In this document: in pieces, positions 27,556-35,146 of the stretch
How the letters are laid out: each line of letters starts with the position of its first letter
How positions within the stretch are numbered: the stretch's first letter is position 1
Assembly (NCBI GenBank): GCA_947644645.1
Contig: CANSAF010000016.1
Location: 1 to 46,678, forward strand
Direction of reading: 5' to 3'
DNA from: an uncultured Sporosarcina sp.
GTDB taxonomy: Bacteria > Bacillota > Bacilli > Bacillales_A > Planococcaceae
DNA length: 46,678 nucleotides
Notes under the pieces: generated by a model
Seen by the model: only the letters and a program-made list of their open reading frames with translations
Databases searched by the model: none
What the model was told of the DNA's origin: nothing
Translations under genes and position numbers: made by a program

Positions 27556-28818
27556 ATGGAGACCGTGCTTGCGTTTATCGTCGTATTCGGAACGCTTGTC
27601 TTTTTTCATGAGTTAGGACATTTTCTATTTGCGAAAAAAGCCGGGATTATGGTACGCGAGTTTGCAATCGGATTTGGTCCGAAGATTTTAGGCATTCAAA
27701 GAGGCGAAACGATTTATACAATTCGATTATTACCGCTTGGCGGATATGTTCGTATGGCGGGAGAAGATTTTGATAAAGTAGAATTACAACCAGGTTACCG
27801 TGTTGGCTTATATGTCAATGCTGCAGGTGAAGTGGAGAAATTGTATTTAAATCAAAATGTGTCAAACCCAGATGTATTATTTTTAGAGACGGAGAAATCT
27901 GATCTAGATAAAGAGTTGTTTATTGAAGGGTATAGTGATGACGGGGAACTTGTGCGTTATCCAATTGCAAGAAATGCAGTTATTGTTGAAAAAGGACAAG
28001 AACTTTTAATTGCGCCTTATGATCGTCAGTTTGAGTCAAAGCCACTCATGAGTCGTACGATGACAATTTTTGCAGGACCTTTATTTAACTTTATTTTATC
28101 ATTTTTTATTTTCTTGACAATTGGTTTAATTCAAGGTGTACCGACATATGAACCAATTATTTCTGAAGTGCAAGACAAAGGTCCGGCATTTGAAGCAGGG
28201 ATGCAGGACGGCGACTTAGTTAGAGAAGTTGAAGGAAGTCCAATTACTTCATGGCAAGAATTTGCAAAGGTAGTTCAAGAGCATCCTGAAGAAGAATTAT
28301 CATTTGTCGTTGAGCGTGGCGGGGAGCTTATTCCACTTCAAATTACGCCTTCTTTAATGGAAGAAGCTGGGCAAAAGTATGGGCAAGTGGGTGTCTATTA
28401 TACAAGTCCGACGGAAGATAATCCGTTAAAAGCAATTGCTTACGGAGCGGAGCGAACTTGGTGGTGGATGACAGAAATTCTTAGCTTACTCGGTCAGCTA
28501 ATTACAGGTAAGTTTTCAATCGATGCATTATCGGGACCGGTCGGAATCTATCAAGCGACTGGAGAAGTTGCAAAGTATGGCATTGTCAACTTAATGCATT
28601 GGGCGGCAATTTTAAGTGTAAACTTAGGGATTATGAATTTATTGCCACTACCAGCACTTGATGGTGGACGTTTATTATTCTTCTTATTTGAAGCAGTTCG
28701 TGGGAAGCCAGTCGATAAACAAAAAGAAGGTATGGTTCATTTTGTAGGAATTGTGCTTTTAATGGTTTTAATGATTGTCGTCACATGGAATGATATTCAA
28801 AGATTCTTTTTTAACTAA
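27556..28818 (+). CDS. rasP: Site-2 intramembrane protease RasP (RseP family)
   Basis: RasP is a zinc metalloprotease that cuts within the membrane. In B. subtilis it cleaves anti-sigma factor RsiW, FtsL and signal peptide remnants. The 420-residue protein has the zinc motif HELGH (His18, Glu19, His22) in the first helix. One PDZ domain at about 195-265 contains EAGMQDGDLVREVEGSPI. The NLLPLPALDGGRL motif supplies the third ligand near the C-terminus. Four membrane helices fit the family. GGTGG precedes the ATG. Confidence 0.97.
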   Translation: METVLAFIVVFGTLVFFHELGHFLFAKKAGIMVREFAIGFGPKILGIQRGETIYTIRLLPLGGYVRMAGEDFDKVELQPGYRVGLYVNAAGEVEKLYLNQNVSNPDVLFLETEKSDLDKELFIEGYSDDGELVRYPIARNAVIVEKGQELLIAPYDRQFESKPLMSRTMTIFAGPLFNFILSFFIFLTIGLIQGVPTYEPIISEVQDKGPAFEAGMQDGDLVREVEGSPITSWQEFAKVVQEHPEEELSFVVERGGELIPLQITPSLMEEAGQKYGQVGVYYTSPTEDNPLKAIAYGAERTWWWMTEILSLLGQLITGKFSIDALSGPVGIYQATGEVAKYGIVNLMHWAAILSVNLGIMNLLPLPALDGGRLLFFLFEAVRGKPVDKQKEGMVHFVGIVLLMVLMIVVTWNDIQRFFFN

Positions 28819-28880: not shown

Positions 28881-28936
28881 GGGGAGCGCTAGAAAAAGTC
28901 TAAACTTGGACTTTTTCTAGCAGCTCCATTTCGTTT
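28881..28936 (+). terminator. Two-tier hairpin before proS
   Basis: The inner stem is a perfect 12-bp pair, CTAGAAAAAGTC (28889-28900) with GACTTTTTCTAG (28909-28920). The outer stem is GGAGC (28883-28887) with GCTCC (28123 offset +800, that is 28923-28927). The following ATTTCGTTT is a weak T-tail, so termination may be partial. No T-box specifier or GGGTGG-type antiterminator motif is visible. Confidence 0.6.
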
Positions 28937-28953
28937 AAAAGGTGGGAAAATAT

Positions 28954-30657
28954 ATGAAACAATCACGAGCGTTTATACCGACAATGCGTGAAATCCCCGC
29001 AGATGTTGAAAAAAAATCACATCAGTTATTATTACGAGCGGGATTTTTGCGTCAACATACGAGTGGCATATATTCATATTTACCTTTTGGGTTAAAAGTG
29101 CTTAAAAAAATCGAAACAATTATTCGGGAAGAAATGGAAGCAATCGATGCTGTGGAAATGCGGAGCTCTATTTTACATAAAGAAGCGCTCGTTGAAACAT
29201 TTACGACAGATGAAAAAATAGATGCGCGCCTTATCCAAGTCGAGGACCGTAAGCATCGACAATATGTGATCGGTGCACTTCATAAAGAACTGATTACATC
29301 ATTGATCCAGGAAGAAGTGCATTCTTATAAACAATTACCTTTAATGCTTTATCAAATTGTGACATCGATTCAAGATGAGTTGCGCCCGCGTTTTGGCTTA
29401 ATTCAAAGTCGTGAATTTGTGAAACAAGAAGCCTATTCGTTTCATGATTCAAAAGAAGACTTACAAGAAAAATATGAGCAAATGAAAGAAGCATATAGCG
29501 CTATATTCAGTAGACTTCATTTAAAGCAATTTGCTGTTTCGTATGATGCGAAAGATTTACAATATGCACATCAATTTATCGCTCCAGCAGACGATGGGGA
29601 TGAGAGAATTGCTTATAGTCACATGGGAACTTATGCCGCACATATCGATGAAGCGGCGGTGAGCATTGAGTATGAAAAAACAGATGAAGCGCCGGAATTA
29701 TTGGAGAAAATCCATATAGTGTTTGAAGGCGAAGCGAAAGATATTGCGAAAGAACTGAAAATCCCCGCTGAAAAATGTATGCAAACATTTCTTTATGAAG
29801 TGGACGGGGAATTAGTTGCTGTGATTAATCGATGTGATTATCAAATTAGTGAGCAGAAATTGAAAAAGGCATTGAATGCTTCTCTTGTTCAATTGGTCGA
29901 GAATTCGGCGGTCGAGGCTCTACTAGCTTGTGATGTCCATTCAATTGGTCCAATTCAATTGCCAGTTGGTCTTAAGGTCATTGCAGATTATGCTGTTTCA
30001 TCGATTGTGAATGGTGTTTCTGGTGCCAATGAAAATGGTGTTTATTTTATCAATGTCAATCCAGAACGTGATTTTGCGGTGAATGAATATTTAGATTTGC
30101 GGCAAGCGTTAGAAGGAGATCCTGCACCAGACGGCATTGGGGAACTTCATTTTACAGAAGGTTTTGAAGTAGGGCGAATCGCTTCTTTAGGGACTTCTTA
30201 TAGTGAAGGTGGACAAGCGAGTTATATTGATGAGAATGGTGAAAAGAAACCGTTCGTGATGGGCGTTTATGAGTTGAATTTGTCACGTATTATGGCAATC
30301 CTTGCAGAACAATACCATGATGAATCGGGGCTTAAATGGCCTAAAAATTTAGCGCCATACGATATTCATCTTGTGCCAATCGATTTAAATGATGAACATC
30401 AATTTGAGTTTGCGACGAATCTTTATCATTTGCTTCAATCGTATCGGTTTGGTGTTTTATTTGACGATCGAGTTGAACGAGCGGGTGTGAAGTTTCAAGA
30501 TGCCGATTTAATCGGGTTGCCTGTTCGTATTACGATTGGCCAGAAAGCCAAAGAAGGTATTTTAGAAGTGAAGTTTCGAGATACTGGTGAGACCGTTGAA
30601 TGGCAAATTGGAGAAGTGACGGAGAAATTACAAGCTTATTTTACGATGCATGAATAA
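28954..30657 (+). CDS. proS: Prolyl-tRNA synthetase-like protein with degenerate active sites
   Basis: The 567-residue product aligns end to end with bacterial ProRS (FIPTMREIPADVEKKSHQLL start, YbaK-like insertion at about 255-375, C-terminal anticodon-binding domain) and sits at the usual proS locus. The catalytic signatures are changed, however. Motif 1 has lost its Pro (EMRSSIL). GATHEE has become GALHKE (residues 107-112). Motif 2 FRDE has become IQDE, with Gln140 for the Arg. Motif 3 CYGIG has become VYELN (438-442). The insertion-domain editing Lys is Gln277, and GHIF is GRIA. The frame is intact and codon use is ordinary. I infer a non-canonical or inactive synthetase, with a real ProRS elsewhere. 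Start ATG 28954 follows GGTGGG; GTG 28942 is less likely. Confidence 0.85.
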   Translation: MKQSRAFIPTMREIPADVEKKSHQLLLRAGFLRQHTSGIYSYLPFGLKVLKKIETIIREEMEAIDAVEMRSSILHKEALVETFTTDEKIDARLIQVEDRKHRQYVIGALHKELITSLIQEEVHSYKQLPLMLYQIVTSIQDELRPRFGLIQSREFVKQEAYSFHDSKEDLQEKYEQMKEAYSAIFSRLHLKQFAVSYDAKDLQYAHQFIAPADDGDERIAYSHMGTYAAHIDEAAVSIEYEKTDEAPELLEKIHIVFEGEAKDIAKELKIPAEKCMQTFLYEVDGELVAVINRCDYQISEQKLKKALNASLVQLVENSAVEALLACDVHSIGPIQLPVGLKVIADYAVSSIVNGVSGANENGVYFINVNPERDFAVNEYLDLRQALEGDPAPDGIGELHFTEGFEVGRIASLGTSYSEGGQASYIDENGEKKPFVMGVYELNLSRIMAILAEQYHDESGLKWPKNLAPYDIHLVPIDLNDEHQFEFATNLYHLLQSYRFGVLFDDRVERAGVKFQDADLIGLPVRITIGQKAKEGILEVKFRDTGETVEWQIGEVTEKLQAYFTMHE

Positions 30658-30817: not shown

Positions 30818-33800
30818 ATGGATGAGCAACAAGATGACAAGATGAAACTCCATCTTTTATTGCAACAAATTGAAATGACAGACGACGAGTATGTCCGTCA
30901 TTTTGAAAATGCTTTATTAGAACGTGTCAGTATTCACCGGAAGTCGCGTGTTTGGCAATTTAACATACGCTTAGAAAAATTATTGCCCGTTGACGTCTAT
31001 ACGATATTTAGTCAACGCGTTCGGCAATCTTTTGCGTCAATTGCGACAGTGCGATTCAATATGAGTTGTCAAAACCCGGTCATTGATGAATCATTGGTCA
31101 TTGGCTATTGGCCATTTATTGTTGACGAATTAAAAGAAATGTCTCCGCCGATTCGTGAGCGTTTGACGAGTCAGCAACCGACTGTGACGGGTGGGAAATT
31201 GACATTAGTTTGTATGAATGAAATGGAATTCCAAACGATGAAATCAAAGTATGCACCGCTTATTTCAGATGCATTTGAATCATTTGGTTTTCCAAGACTC
31301 GCAGTGGAGTTCCAGTTAACGGATAACTTAAGTGAAGCTGCAGAAGCCCAGAGACGCTTTTTAGAAGAGCGTCAAGCGGAAGAAGAAGCGATTGGTCGAA
31401 AAGCATTGGAAGACTTGCAGAAGCGTGAAGAAAGCCGTAAAGAACAAGGAGATATGCCGTCGGGTCCATTCCAATACGGAACACCAATTAAACATGATGA
31501 GCCGTTAATGGATATTAAAGAAATTCAAGACGAAGAACGCAGCGTTGTCATTGAAGGGTATGTATTCGATGCGGAAGTAAGAGAACTCCGTAGTGGTCGT
31601 TCACTCTTAACGATTAAAATTACCGATTACACAGATTCAATTATTGTGAAAATGTTCTCACGGAATGAAGAAGACGGAAAGTATATGGCTACGCTTAAGA
31701 AAGGTGCTTGGGTACGTGCACGTGGAGGCGTTCAAAATGATTCGTTTGTGCGTGATTTAATCATGATGGCCCAATCAATTACTGAAATCAATCCCGTCAT
31801 TAGACGTGATACAGCGTCTGAAGATCGTAAACGTGTAGAACTACATGCGCATACGATGATGAGCCAAATGGATGCGGTTGTATCGGCATCTGCACTTGTT
31901 GAACAAGCAGCGAAATGGGGCCATCCTGCAGTGGCAATTACAGATCACGGGAATGTTCAAGCATTTCCAGAAGCTTATTCTGCGGGGAAGAAAAATGGCA
32001 TTAAAGTATTATTCGGGATGGAAGCGAATTTAGTCGATGATGGTGTGCCGATCGCATACGGTGAAACAGAAGAGCTATTAGATGACGCAACTTATATCGT
32101 CTTTGACGTAGAGACGACAGGCTTATCGGCAGTTTATAATACGATTATTGAACTTGCCGCGGTGAAAATAAAAAACGGCGAAGTCATTGATACATTCGAA
32201 AGTTTTGCCAATCCGCATGAGCCAATTTCAGCGCTTATTACCAACTTAACGGGTATTACAGACGATATGGTAAAAGATGCACCAAATGTCGATGAAGTTG
32301 TGAAGAAGTATTATGAGTGGATCGGGGAAGGCAGTATTCTTGTTGCGCATAATGCGGCGTTTGATATGGGCTTCTTATATGAAGCTTATAAAAAAGCGGG
32401 CATCCCGAGTATTGTTTATCCGGTTATTGATACGCTTGAACTTGCACGTTTCTTACATCCGGAACTTGGGAATCACCGTTTGAATACGTTAGCCAAAAAA
32501 TACAATATTGAATTGACGCAGCATCACCGTGCCATTTATGATGCGGAAGCGACAGGACATTTGTTCTTGAAATTACTAGAAGGTGCGAAAACTGAAGGCA
32601 TTTCTTATTTAGCTGATTTTAATGAACATATTGGTGAAGGAGATTCCTTTAAACGGGCTAGACCATCCCATTGTACAATTATCGCAACGGATGATATCGG
32701 GATTAAAAATTTATATAAACTCGTTTCTTATTCACATATGGATTATTTTTACAGAGTTCCTCGAATTCCACGTTCATTATTAACGAAGTATCGACAAGGC
32801 TTAATTATCGGGTCGGGTTGTTCGAATGGTGAAGTGTTTGAAGGGCTTATGCAAAAAGCACCTGAAGAAGTAGAGGAAATTGCGAGGTTTTATGATTATA
32901 TTGAAATTCATCCGAAGGCAGTCTATTCTCATTTAATCGATATGGAACTGATTCGTGATGAATGGAATATGGAAGATATTATGCGCAAACTCATTAAACT
33001 AGGGAAAAAAGTCGGGATTCCTGTTTGTGCAACCGGAAATGTTCATTATATCAATGAGACAGATGCGACATTTAGAGAAGTATTGGTTCGTTCACAAGGC
33101 GGGGCGAATCCTTTAAATCGTCATTCTTTACCAGCTGTACATTTTAGGACAACTAATGAGATGTTAAAAGAGTTTTCGTTTTTAGGTGAGGCGATTGCGG
33201 AAGAGATTGTCATTGATAATCCACAAAAAATTGTAGATCTTGTCGGTGAAGTGAAGCCGATTAAAGATGATTTATATACACCTGAGATTGAAGGTGCGGA
33301 AGAGGAAGTAAAAGATTTAACGTATTCAATGGCGCATAAAATTTACGGTGAGGAATTGCCGAAAGTTGTGACAGATCGTGTTGAAAAAGAATTGAAGTCG
33401 ATTATTGGTCACGGATTTTCGGTAATTTACTTAATTTCACATAAATTGGTGAAAAGGTCATTGGATGACGGTTATCTTGTTGGATCACGTGGTTCGGTCG
33501 GTTCATCTCTTGTTGCAACCATGATGGAAATTACAGAAGTAAATCCATTACCGCCACATTATGTATGCCCAACTTGTAAAAAAGCCGAGTTCTTCGATGA
33601 TGGTTCGGTGAGTTCGGGTTATGATTTACCGGATAAAAATTGTGCAGATTGCGATGTTCCATATAAAAAAGACGGACAAGATATCCCTTTCGAAACCTTC
33701 CTCGGATTCGAAGGAGACAAGGTACCCGACATCGATTTGAATTTCAGTGGTGATTATCAAGCGAAGGCGCATGATTATACGAAGGATTTATTTGGTGAGG

Positions 33801-35146
33801 ATTACGTTTACCGTGCAGGGACGATTGGTACGGTGGCGGAACGAACTGCTTATGGTTATGTTCGTGGTTATATGAATGATAATGGCGTTCATTTCCGCGG
33901 TGCAGAAATTGACCGACTTGTGATTGGGTGTTCAGGCGTAAAAAGAAGTACAGGACAGCACCCTGGGGGAATTATTGTTGTGCCAGATTCGAAAGATATT
34001 TTCGACTTTACACCGATTCAATTCCCAGCTAATGACTTAAGTTCGCCGTGGAAAACAACACATTTTGATTTCCATTCAATAGAAGATAATTTATTGAAAC
34101 TCGATATTTTAGGACATGATGATCCGACAATGATTAAAATGTTGGAAGATTTATCAGGCATTGATCCGCTAACGATTCCACCAGATGATGAAGGTGTTAT
34201 GAAATTATTTAGTGGAACTGAATCACTTGGTGTTACACCCGAACAAATCGGATGTAAAACCGGTACATTAGGTGTTCCGGAGTTTGGAACCCGATTTGTT
34301 CGTCAAATGTTGGAAGAAACGAAACCGAAAACATTTTCCGAGCTAGTTCAAATTTCTGGACTGTCTCACGGTACGGACGTATGGCTTGGGAACGCACAAG
34401 AATTAATTAAAAATAAAACATGTGTGTTATCTGACGTAATCGGTTGTCGAGATGATATTATGGTTTATTTAATTTACCAAGGATTAAAACCAGCAACAGC
34501 TTTCAGTATTATGGAATCGGTTCGTAAAGGTCGCGGTTTATCGCCAGAATTTGAAGAAGCGATGCGTGCGGAAAATGTACCGAATTGGTATATCGAATCA
34601 TGTAAAAAGATTAAATACATGTTCCCGAAAGCCCATGCTGCGGCTTATGTATTAATGGCATTAAGGATTGCATACTTTAAAGTGCATCATCCAATCCTTT
34701 ATTATTCTGCATACTTTACGGTTCGTGCGGCAGATCATGATTTACTGACGATGACGAAAGGTGCGGCATCGATTCGATCGAAAATCCAGGAAATCGATGC
34801 AAAAGGATTAGAAGCATCGCCGAAAGAGAAAAACTTATTAACGGTTTTAGAAATTTCTTTAGAAATGGTCGAGCGTGGATTTACGATGGCTAAGCCTGAT
34901 TTGTATAAATCAGATGCAACGACGTTTATTATTGACGGGGACCAATTAATTCCACCGTTTAATGCGATTCCTTCGCTTGGAACGAACGTCGCATTATCGA
35001 TTGTAGAAGCGCGAAAAGATGGTGAGTTTTTATCTAAAGAAGATCTGCAGCAAAGAGGGCGCGTTTCAAAAACAGTGATTGAATATATGGATGACCTTGG
35101 CTGTTTAGAAGGAATGCCAGAAGCGAACCAGCTGTCATTGTTTTAG
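30818..35146 (+). CDS. polC: DNA polymerase III alpha subunit PolC
   Basis: PolC is the main replicative polymerase of low-GC Gram-positives, with built-in 3'-5' proofreading. The 1442 residues contain, in order, an N-terminal domain, an OB fold (about 235-325), a PHP domain ([15 protein letters not shown]) interrupted by a DEDD exonuclease (FDVETTG at about 430, [20 protein letters not shown]), a Cys-rich zinc site ([10 protein letters not shown] and CADC) and the polymerase core. The core has catalytic [11 protein letters not shown] near 970. The [20 protein letters not shown] and [14 protein letters not shown] stretches follow. All catalytic acids appear intact, which contrasts with the gene before it. 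GGAGGA precedes the ATG. Confidence 0.99.

Follow-up and report, generated by a model that had tools for sequence, protein, structure and literature searches.

The window, the whole stretch of 46,678 nucleotides analysed here, comes from the genome of an uncultured member of the genus Sporosarcina (G000) and carries a P-type prolyl-tRNA synthetase (ProRS) gene, proS, whose synthetase residues are eroded. Genes of the uppS, cdsA and dxr types lie upstream of it, and rimP and nusA lie downstream. The features at the locus are given below; the domain boundaries were set by us, and the ribosome-binding site was read from the sequence.

27556..28818, + strand: rseP-type M50 peptidase gene, the upstream neighbour
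28940..28945, + strand: ribosome-binding site AGGTGG, 8 bases ahead of the ATG at 28954
28954..30657, + strand: eroded P-type ProRS coding sequence, 567 amino acids and a stop
28954..29619, + strand: class II core, first part (residues 1-222), with P72S, T109L, E111K, R140Q, R151Q, K158Q and deletion of a loop Gly pair
29620..30132, + strand: INS editing domain (residues 223-393), with a Pfam PF04073 match of 49.3 bits (residues 261-370); Gln277 stands in place of the catalytic Lys and Tyr364 in place of the His
30133..30351, + strand: class II core, second part (residues 394-466), with motif 3 CYGIG changed to VYELN (438-442) and the final Arg445 retained
30352..30654, + strand: anticodon-binding domain (residues 467-567), with 22 of 24 invariant sites retained
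30818..35146, + strand: polC, the downstream neighbour and the source of the species tree

The translation of 567 residues contains no internal stop, so the intact frame of 567 codons reported in the initial annotation is real. The protein is a full-length match to the P-type ProRS model TIGR00409 (514.6 bits), and it also scores above the cut-off of NF006625, the NCBI equivalog for proline--tRNA ligase (564.5 versus 558 bits). The PF04073 match is above its cut-off of 25.5 bits, and an HGTP anticodon-binding domain is found at 59.5 bits. Misassembly or contamination was considered and rejected, because the gene adjoins polC as it does in relatives and the same synthetase sites are changed in three sister species. 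An Rfam search of the genome's two proS loci at gathering thresholds returned nothing at the window gene. Inspection by eye of the spacer between rseP and the eroded proS revealed a long hairpin-like inverted repeat (28883-28927); the same spacer carries a different, GGCGCC repeat in the sister species G019 and G067, whereas the intact G008 and G041 (the G040/G041 type) have just a short spacer at this place.

Residues were placed by aligning the protein with 33 intact ProRS sequences of the family and with two solved ProRS structures, 5znj from S. aureus and 2j3l from E. faecalis; substitutions are written in S. aureus numbering first. The changes in the class II core include the motif-1 Pro (P72S), T109L and E111K, the motif-2 Arg (R140Q), R151Q and K158Q. 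In the GGxxTHEF loop, Gly 203 and 204 are both deleted and HEF has become HQF, and in motif 3, C439, G441 and G443 correspond to V438, E440 and N442. At the editing site, K279 is replaced by Q277, and H365, the His of GANxxGYH, by Y364. The initial annotation had named the motif-1 Pro, the Thr and Glu of GATHEE, the motif-2 Arg, motif 3, MGGxxSHEF and the editing Lys as replaced, and this alignment to structures and family members bears out each of them. It had also counted the His of QxxxGH as a lost signature residue. The S. aureus ProRS itself has Gln there, so this His is not universal. An alignment artefact was rejected as an explanation, as three separate alignments agree on the replaced residues.

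For 174 sites that are unchanged across 35 intact enzymes, retention by the window protein varies with the region: 28 of 49 sites survive in the catalytic motifs, 49 of 67 elsewhere in the core, 23 of 34 within INS and 22 of 24 within the anticodon-binding domain. The deficit in the catalytic motifs relative to all other invariant sites has a one-sided Fisher p of 0.017, a value to be read with the caveat that sites are not independent and that we picked the motif windows. This deficit is real but moderate. The earlier proposal that exactly these sites had changed is therefore overstated, since invariant residues are also lost elsewhere in the core and in INS. Its view that framework residues and the anticodon-binding domain are kept agrees with the retention of the motif-3 Arg445 and with the site counts, in which the anticodon-binding domain is the best-kept part of the protein.

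HisZ is not known to have an anticodon-binding domain. For a HisZ-like regulatory subunit of another enzyme, a role raised in the initial annotation, this domain would be needless, and yet it is what the window protein keeps best; moreover, no partner gene was found at the locus among eight proteins examined, seven of them from the window. Such a role is very improbable, and we found no evidence for it, although HisZ shows that a synthetase paralogue is capable of one (as described in PMC7373986).

Thr109, Glu111, Arg140 and the motif-3 Gly residues, by which a functional P-type ProRS is recognized, are missing from the window protein, as are the catalytic Lys279 and His of an INS-type enzyme that edits Ala-tRNA-Pro. 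The protein might nevertheless be a still-active ProRS with unusual motifs, in keeping with its equivalog score and its motif-3 Arg. However, Thr109, Glu111 and Arg140 are replaced in all four species of its clade, the motif-2 Arg is to our knowledge near-universal among class II synthetases, and the genome encodes a second ProRS whose motifs are in place. Continued activity is extremely improbable, and a working synthetase site is, judging from these residues, very unlikely. The gene is thus an annotation trap: its product passes the NCBI proline--tRNA ligase cut-off, yet very likely charges nothing.

The second ProRS is of the E type. The G000 assembly (3.36 Mb, 99.88% complete) has a single TIGR00409 match above the cut-off, which is the window gene, and one E-type ProRS of 478 amino acids on contig C15 (TIGR00408, 589.5 bits). 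The latter matches the T. thermophilus ProRS at 1e-161 and has RPTSET, GTSHYLG and TTSWG all present; a search of it for an INS editing domain found none. The presence of this gene supports the earlier suggestion that a second ProRS elsewhere in the genome may have taken over charging. A Bacillaceae-1 RNA (RF01690, 51.5 bits) is located upstream of the E-type proS gene (L002:435-502) and is the only Rfam match at the two proS loci. Two proteins of G000 match PF04073. One is a stand-alone YbaK (TIGR00011, 167.3 bits; nearest solved structure 2dxa, 'Protein ybaK'), and we assume that the other is the product of the window gene, as that protein has the domain. A genus-mate, G021, has two full-length E-type ProRS genes (on C41 and C42) together with an intact P-type gene.

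The distribution of both enzymes was examined in 261 genomes of the family, 68 of which belong to Sporosarcina. Within the genus, TIGR00409 is matched in 68/68 genomes and TIGR00408 in 62/68. Five of the six genomes with no TIGR00408 match (G026, G037, G038, G052 and G057) have a P-type ProRS with 22/22 synthetase sites; in the sixth, G050, the P-type gene is cut by a contig end and the visible motifs are intact. Across the family, the corresponding counts are 235/261 and 179/261. The P-type gene is absent from genera g14 (19 genomes, four of them assigned by elimination) and g4 (4 genomes), in all of which the E-type gene is present. In genus g18, the P-type gene is found in 23 of 25 genomes and is eroded in all 23.

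For each genome, 22 synthetase, 7 editing and 12 anticodon-domain sites were scored, and a gene that keeps 20 or fewer of the 22 synthetase sites was called eroded. Changes were counted on a polC tree built with FastTree from 92 genomes (91 scored, all but G214), in which 15 of 88 inner branches are open. The polC set includes short matches from G053, G234, G237 and G256. G247 and G249 are absent from the tree, and L215, a piece from G249, was left out of the alignment. G050 and G059, the latter with its gene split into two pieces in an assembly of 83% completeness and 9% contamination, stand outside the tree and the counts.

The P-type ProRS is eroded in 57 of the 91 scored genomes (36 in the window's genus and 21 in a second genus), among which species from the same clade do not count as independent cases. 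On the tree, the fewest changes to the eroded state number six (and also six at a cut-off of 19). The E-type gene is present in 57/57 of these genomes, so the sample contains no eroded genome that lacks a second ProRS. The editing Lys and His are both kept in 40 of the 57. One or the other is changed in 17 of the 91 genomes (fewest changes, five), and all 17 are eroded at their synthetase sites. These counts indicate that synthesis is lost first, while the editing and anticodon-binding parts persist. In eight of nine eroded groups, INS has retained a larger share of its invariant sites than the catalytic motifs have. The exception is G129, with 45/49 catalytic and 29/34 INS sites; at 21/22 scored synthetase sites, it is not among the genomes counted as eroded. 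The G129 protein (L195, from a third genus) has Thr109 changed to Ala (AAAQEE for GPTHEE) and keeps most other synthetase sites, which perhaps represents an early stage.

Two clades within the family differ in character. In a clade of 15 genomes (G003, G016, G017 and others), the motif-2 and motif-3 Arg residues are kept in 15/15. With its core tightly held and both class II Arg residues present, this protein may still be an enzyme, though an altered one. The other clade consists of ten genomes of Sporosarcina (L096-L105) in which the frame is uninterrupted, 538 codons long (547 in a single genome), and scores only 209-227 bits against TIGR00409. Their consensus is shorter by about 26 residues behind motif 1 and shows new invariant motifs that the clade shares, GKSDEM, TGYxYxDxTRLF and GANExDTF. 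Both Arg residues are kept in 10/10, the editing His is lost in 10/10 and the Lys in 9/10, and of the 12 sites scored in the anticodon domain only 6 or 7 remain. Nowhere else in the family is a new function indicated as strongly as in this 538-residue clade.

Selection on the gene was gauged from NG86 dN/dS in 42 chosen pairs; the values are rough, as several pairs have dS above 1.2. Intact pairs (n = 11) range from 0.027 to 0.076. The eroded groups give 0.024-0.093 (15-genome clade, 9 pairs), 0.076-0.101 (538-residue clade, 6 pairs), 0.027-0.166 (g18, 7 pairs), 0.050-0.179 (three pairs, G018/G023, G004/G044 and G039/G012) and, highest of the groups, 0.129-0.221 (the window's own clade, 5 pairs). 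A seventh pair of the 538-residue clade, G060/G061, has 0.608 at dS near 0 and is excluded from these ranges. The 30 informative eroded pairs thus span 0.024-0.221, far below 1. For polC, the matching pairs give 0.011-0.058, except for G060/G061 (0.112) and one undefined pair. When neutral substitution of the window gene was simulated, 0.6 changes per site produced a mean of 21.5 stops, and with as little as 0.05 changes per site the probability of no stop was 0.035 (substitutions only). Because neutral change usually yields stops, the open frame of the window gene exceeds chance, in line with the earlier argument that random decay would have spoiled it. Neither a disrupted frame nor a dN/dS near 1, the marks of a pseudogene, is seen. 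The old P-type gene has been under purifying selection, as the initial annotation anticipated: orthologues with the same synthetase changes exist, and dN/dS within their clade is far below 1.

The order of events in the window's own lineage can be read from its clade, which comprises G000, G046, G019 and G067 and is sister to the intact G008, G040 and G041 in the polC tree. The synthetase replacements at positions 109, 111 and 140 are common to all four species, whereas G046, G019 and G067 keep 7/7 editing sites and the Gln and Tyr at the editing site occur in G000 only. The synthetase site was therefore lost in the common ancestor and the editing Lys and His later, in the G000 lineage; the initial annotation had treated the two losses as one event, and they are two. 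Branch lengths for each domain were computed on a fixed tree derived from polC. The stem of the clade, where most of the change in the synthetase core took place, has lengths of 0.664 (core), 0.381 (INS), 0.122 (anticodon domain) and 0.056 (polC); on the stem of the intact G008/G040/G041 group the same four values are 0.062, 0.082, 0.168 and 0.082. On the terminal branch of G000, INS reaches 0.743 and the core 0.220, and the anticodon domain (0.085) is the only domain that is no faster than polC (0.090). The short stem of G000 and G046 has 0.206 for the anticodon domain versus 0.023 for polC, a noisy figure because this domain has only about 100 residues. INS is also fast in G046 (0.471), and this rate, together with that on the clade stem, suggests that editing was relaxed before the private loss of Lys and His in G000.

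The fast INS of G000 would be expected if the E-type enzyme had taken over charging and the old gene were functionless here, in slow terminal decay with disruption still to come. The dN/dS of the clade, the highest of any group, and the disappearance of the P-type gene from g14, g4 and two g18 genomes point the same way. Against this stand 567 stop-free codons where about 0.05 neutral changes per site would usually give a stop, the low dN/dS within the clade and the slow anticodon domain on the G000 branch. Together, these three observations leave room for decay only if function was lost recently, and we regard this explanation as somewhat unlikely. It is also possible that Gln277 and Tyr364 shift the specificity of editing instead of abolishing it. 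A change of His to Tyr or Phe combined with a change of Lys does recur, in G000, in 9/10 of the 538-residue clade, in G246 and in G255. However, the E. coli ProRS variant K279A is described as editing-defective, so that the Lys is needed for editing (PMC3973320), and on the G000 branch no domain has changed faster than INS. Altered INS chemistry is accordingly improbable.

We consider it somewhat probable that the window gene is the lineage's own P-type ProRS, retired from charging and past a trans-editing stage, and that it now serves as a tRNA-Pro-binding accessory or is late in decay. The first step of this scenario is visible in the sequences: beside an E-type ProRS, the P-type enzyme lost synthetase residues through at least six changes while its frame stayed open. 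In a second step, INS and the anticodon-binding domain of most eroded lineages would clear the Ala-tRNA-Pro made by the E-type enzyme; a whole synthetase would thereby have turned into a trans-editing factor. This step is suggested by the persistence of INS beyond the catalytic motifs in eight of the nine eroded groups, even though INS dN exceeds core dN in 11/11 pairs of intact enzymes. It also agrees with descriptions of INS editing of Ala-tRNA-Pro as relying on anticodon elements through the anticodon-binding domain (PMC3973320), of ProXp-ala as used by many bacteria with an INS-less ProRS (PMC3973320) and of a complete ProRS as able to edit in trans (PMC4787780). In the third step, the editing Lys and His were replaced in the G000 lineage, which would leave a tRNA-Pro-binding accessory with no chemistry of its own, for example one that presents tRNA-Pro to YbaK, or a gene nearing loss. 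Selection has kept the old gene intact, probably through a role in tRNA-Pro quality control rather than charging, toward which the retained parts of the protein point. Several points count against this scenario: the window protein has no editing Lys or His, its INS was fast before their private loss, the anticodon domain far outpaced polC on the stem of G000 and G046, G129 has the opposite pattern, and the protein of the 15-genome clade may be an altered enzyme.

A more specific accessory role would be to guide YbaK, which by itself does not discriminate between tRNAs: by keeping its dimer and its binding of tRNA-Pro, the window protein would let YbaK clear Cys-tRNA-Pro while sparing Cys-tRNA-Cys. 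G000 encodes a YbaK, and the anticodon-binding domain is the part of the window protein that such a role would use. In E. coli, one YbaK is described as joining two ProRS and one tRNA-Pro in a ternary complex, and the specificity of YbaK is proposed to come from the ProRS dimer with tRNA-Pro (PMC6344894). Against it, all 19 g14 genomes encode a stand-alone protein in the match range of the G000 YbaK (the TIGR00011 identity check was applied to the latter alone) and have no P-type ProRS. We judge a scaffold for YbaK unlikely. We also looked across the family for clean complementarity between loss of INS and stand-alone INS-like proteins, and found none. Many genomes with an intact INS also encode a second stand-alone INS-like protein, and so loss and replacement fail to match cleanly. 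No PF04073 match is found in 4/4 g4 genomes, and 5/19 g14 genomes have a single stand-alone PF04073 protein only, which suggests that trans-editing is dispensable in these relatives. Together with the g14 genomes that have a YbaK-range protein and no P-type ProRS, this implies that neither trans-editing nor a scaffold role is indispensable.

For the family as a whole, we propose tentatively that ProRS may have turned at least six times into a full-length trans-editing factor beside a second ProRS, and that several lineages, including that of the window, may then have lost editing, to be kept as a noncatalytic tRNA-Pro binder or, in the 538-residue clade, to gain a new job. If true, this series would be a natural replay of how synthetase-like proteins arise. 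Trans-editing factors and synthetase-like proteins are already known, as PMC7373986 describes, and are usually known only as finished products; what appears new is that a whole ProRS is converted repeatedly and by degrees without leaving its locus. A search of the open-access literature, a scope that most subscription papers fall outside, returned no paper joining prolyl-tRNA synthetase and Sporosarcina, and its titles and abstract openings contained no description of such a graded series. One locus in one family offers intact forms, forms with an eroded synthetase and intact editing, and forms past editing, so that the order of events is readable and can be tested at the bench.

The window protein resembles functional P-type ProRS (TIGR00409 and NF006625) in ancestry, locus, domain plan, frame and most residues of the fold, and differs from it by its replaced synthetase and editing sites and by the E-type ProRS alongside. 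HisZ differs from it in that it is not known to have an anticodon-binding domain, the very part that the window protein has preserved best. The two are alike, as are other synthetase paralogues, in having a synthetase fold that is not put to synthetase function (PMC7373986). The eroded relatives with an intact INS are similar to ProXp-ala and YbaK in that their INS domain could act in trans on tRNA-Pro. However, ProXp-ala and YbaK are single-domain proteins, whereas an eroded ProRS is an entire synthetase that includes an anticodon-binding domain, and the window protein further differs by its missing editing Lys and His. Archaeal ThrRS-ed and the apo-T1 ThrRS of Anabaena are comparable in that, as described, they edit in trans for a synthetase that is unable to edit, and Anabaena T1 is, like the eroded ProRS, a whole synthetase, in its case a duplicated one (PMC4787780, PMC7373986). 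They differ in acting on another amino acid, and apo-T1 loses synthesis reversibly with zinc (PMC4787780, PMC7373986), whereas the loss in the eroded ProRS is written into the sequence, through at least six changes.
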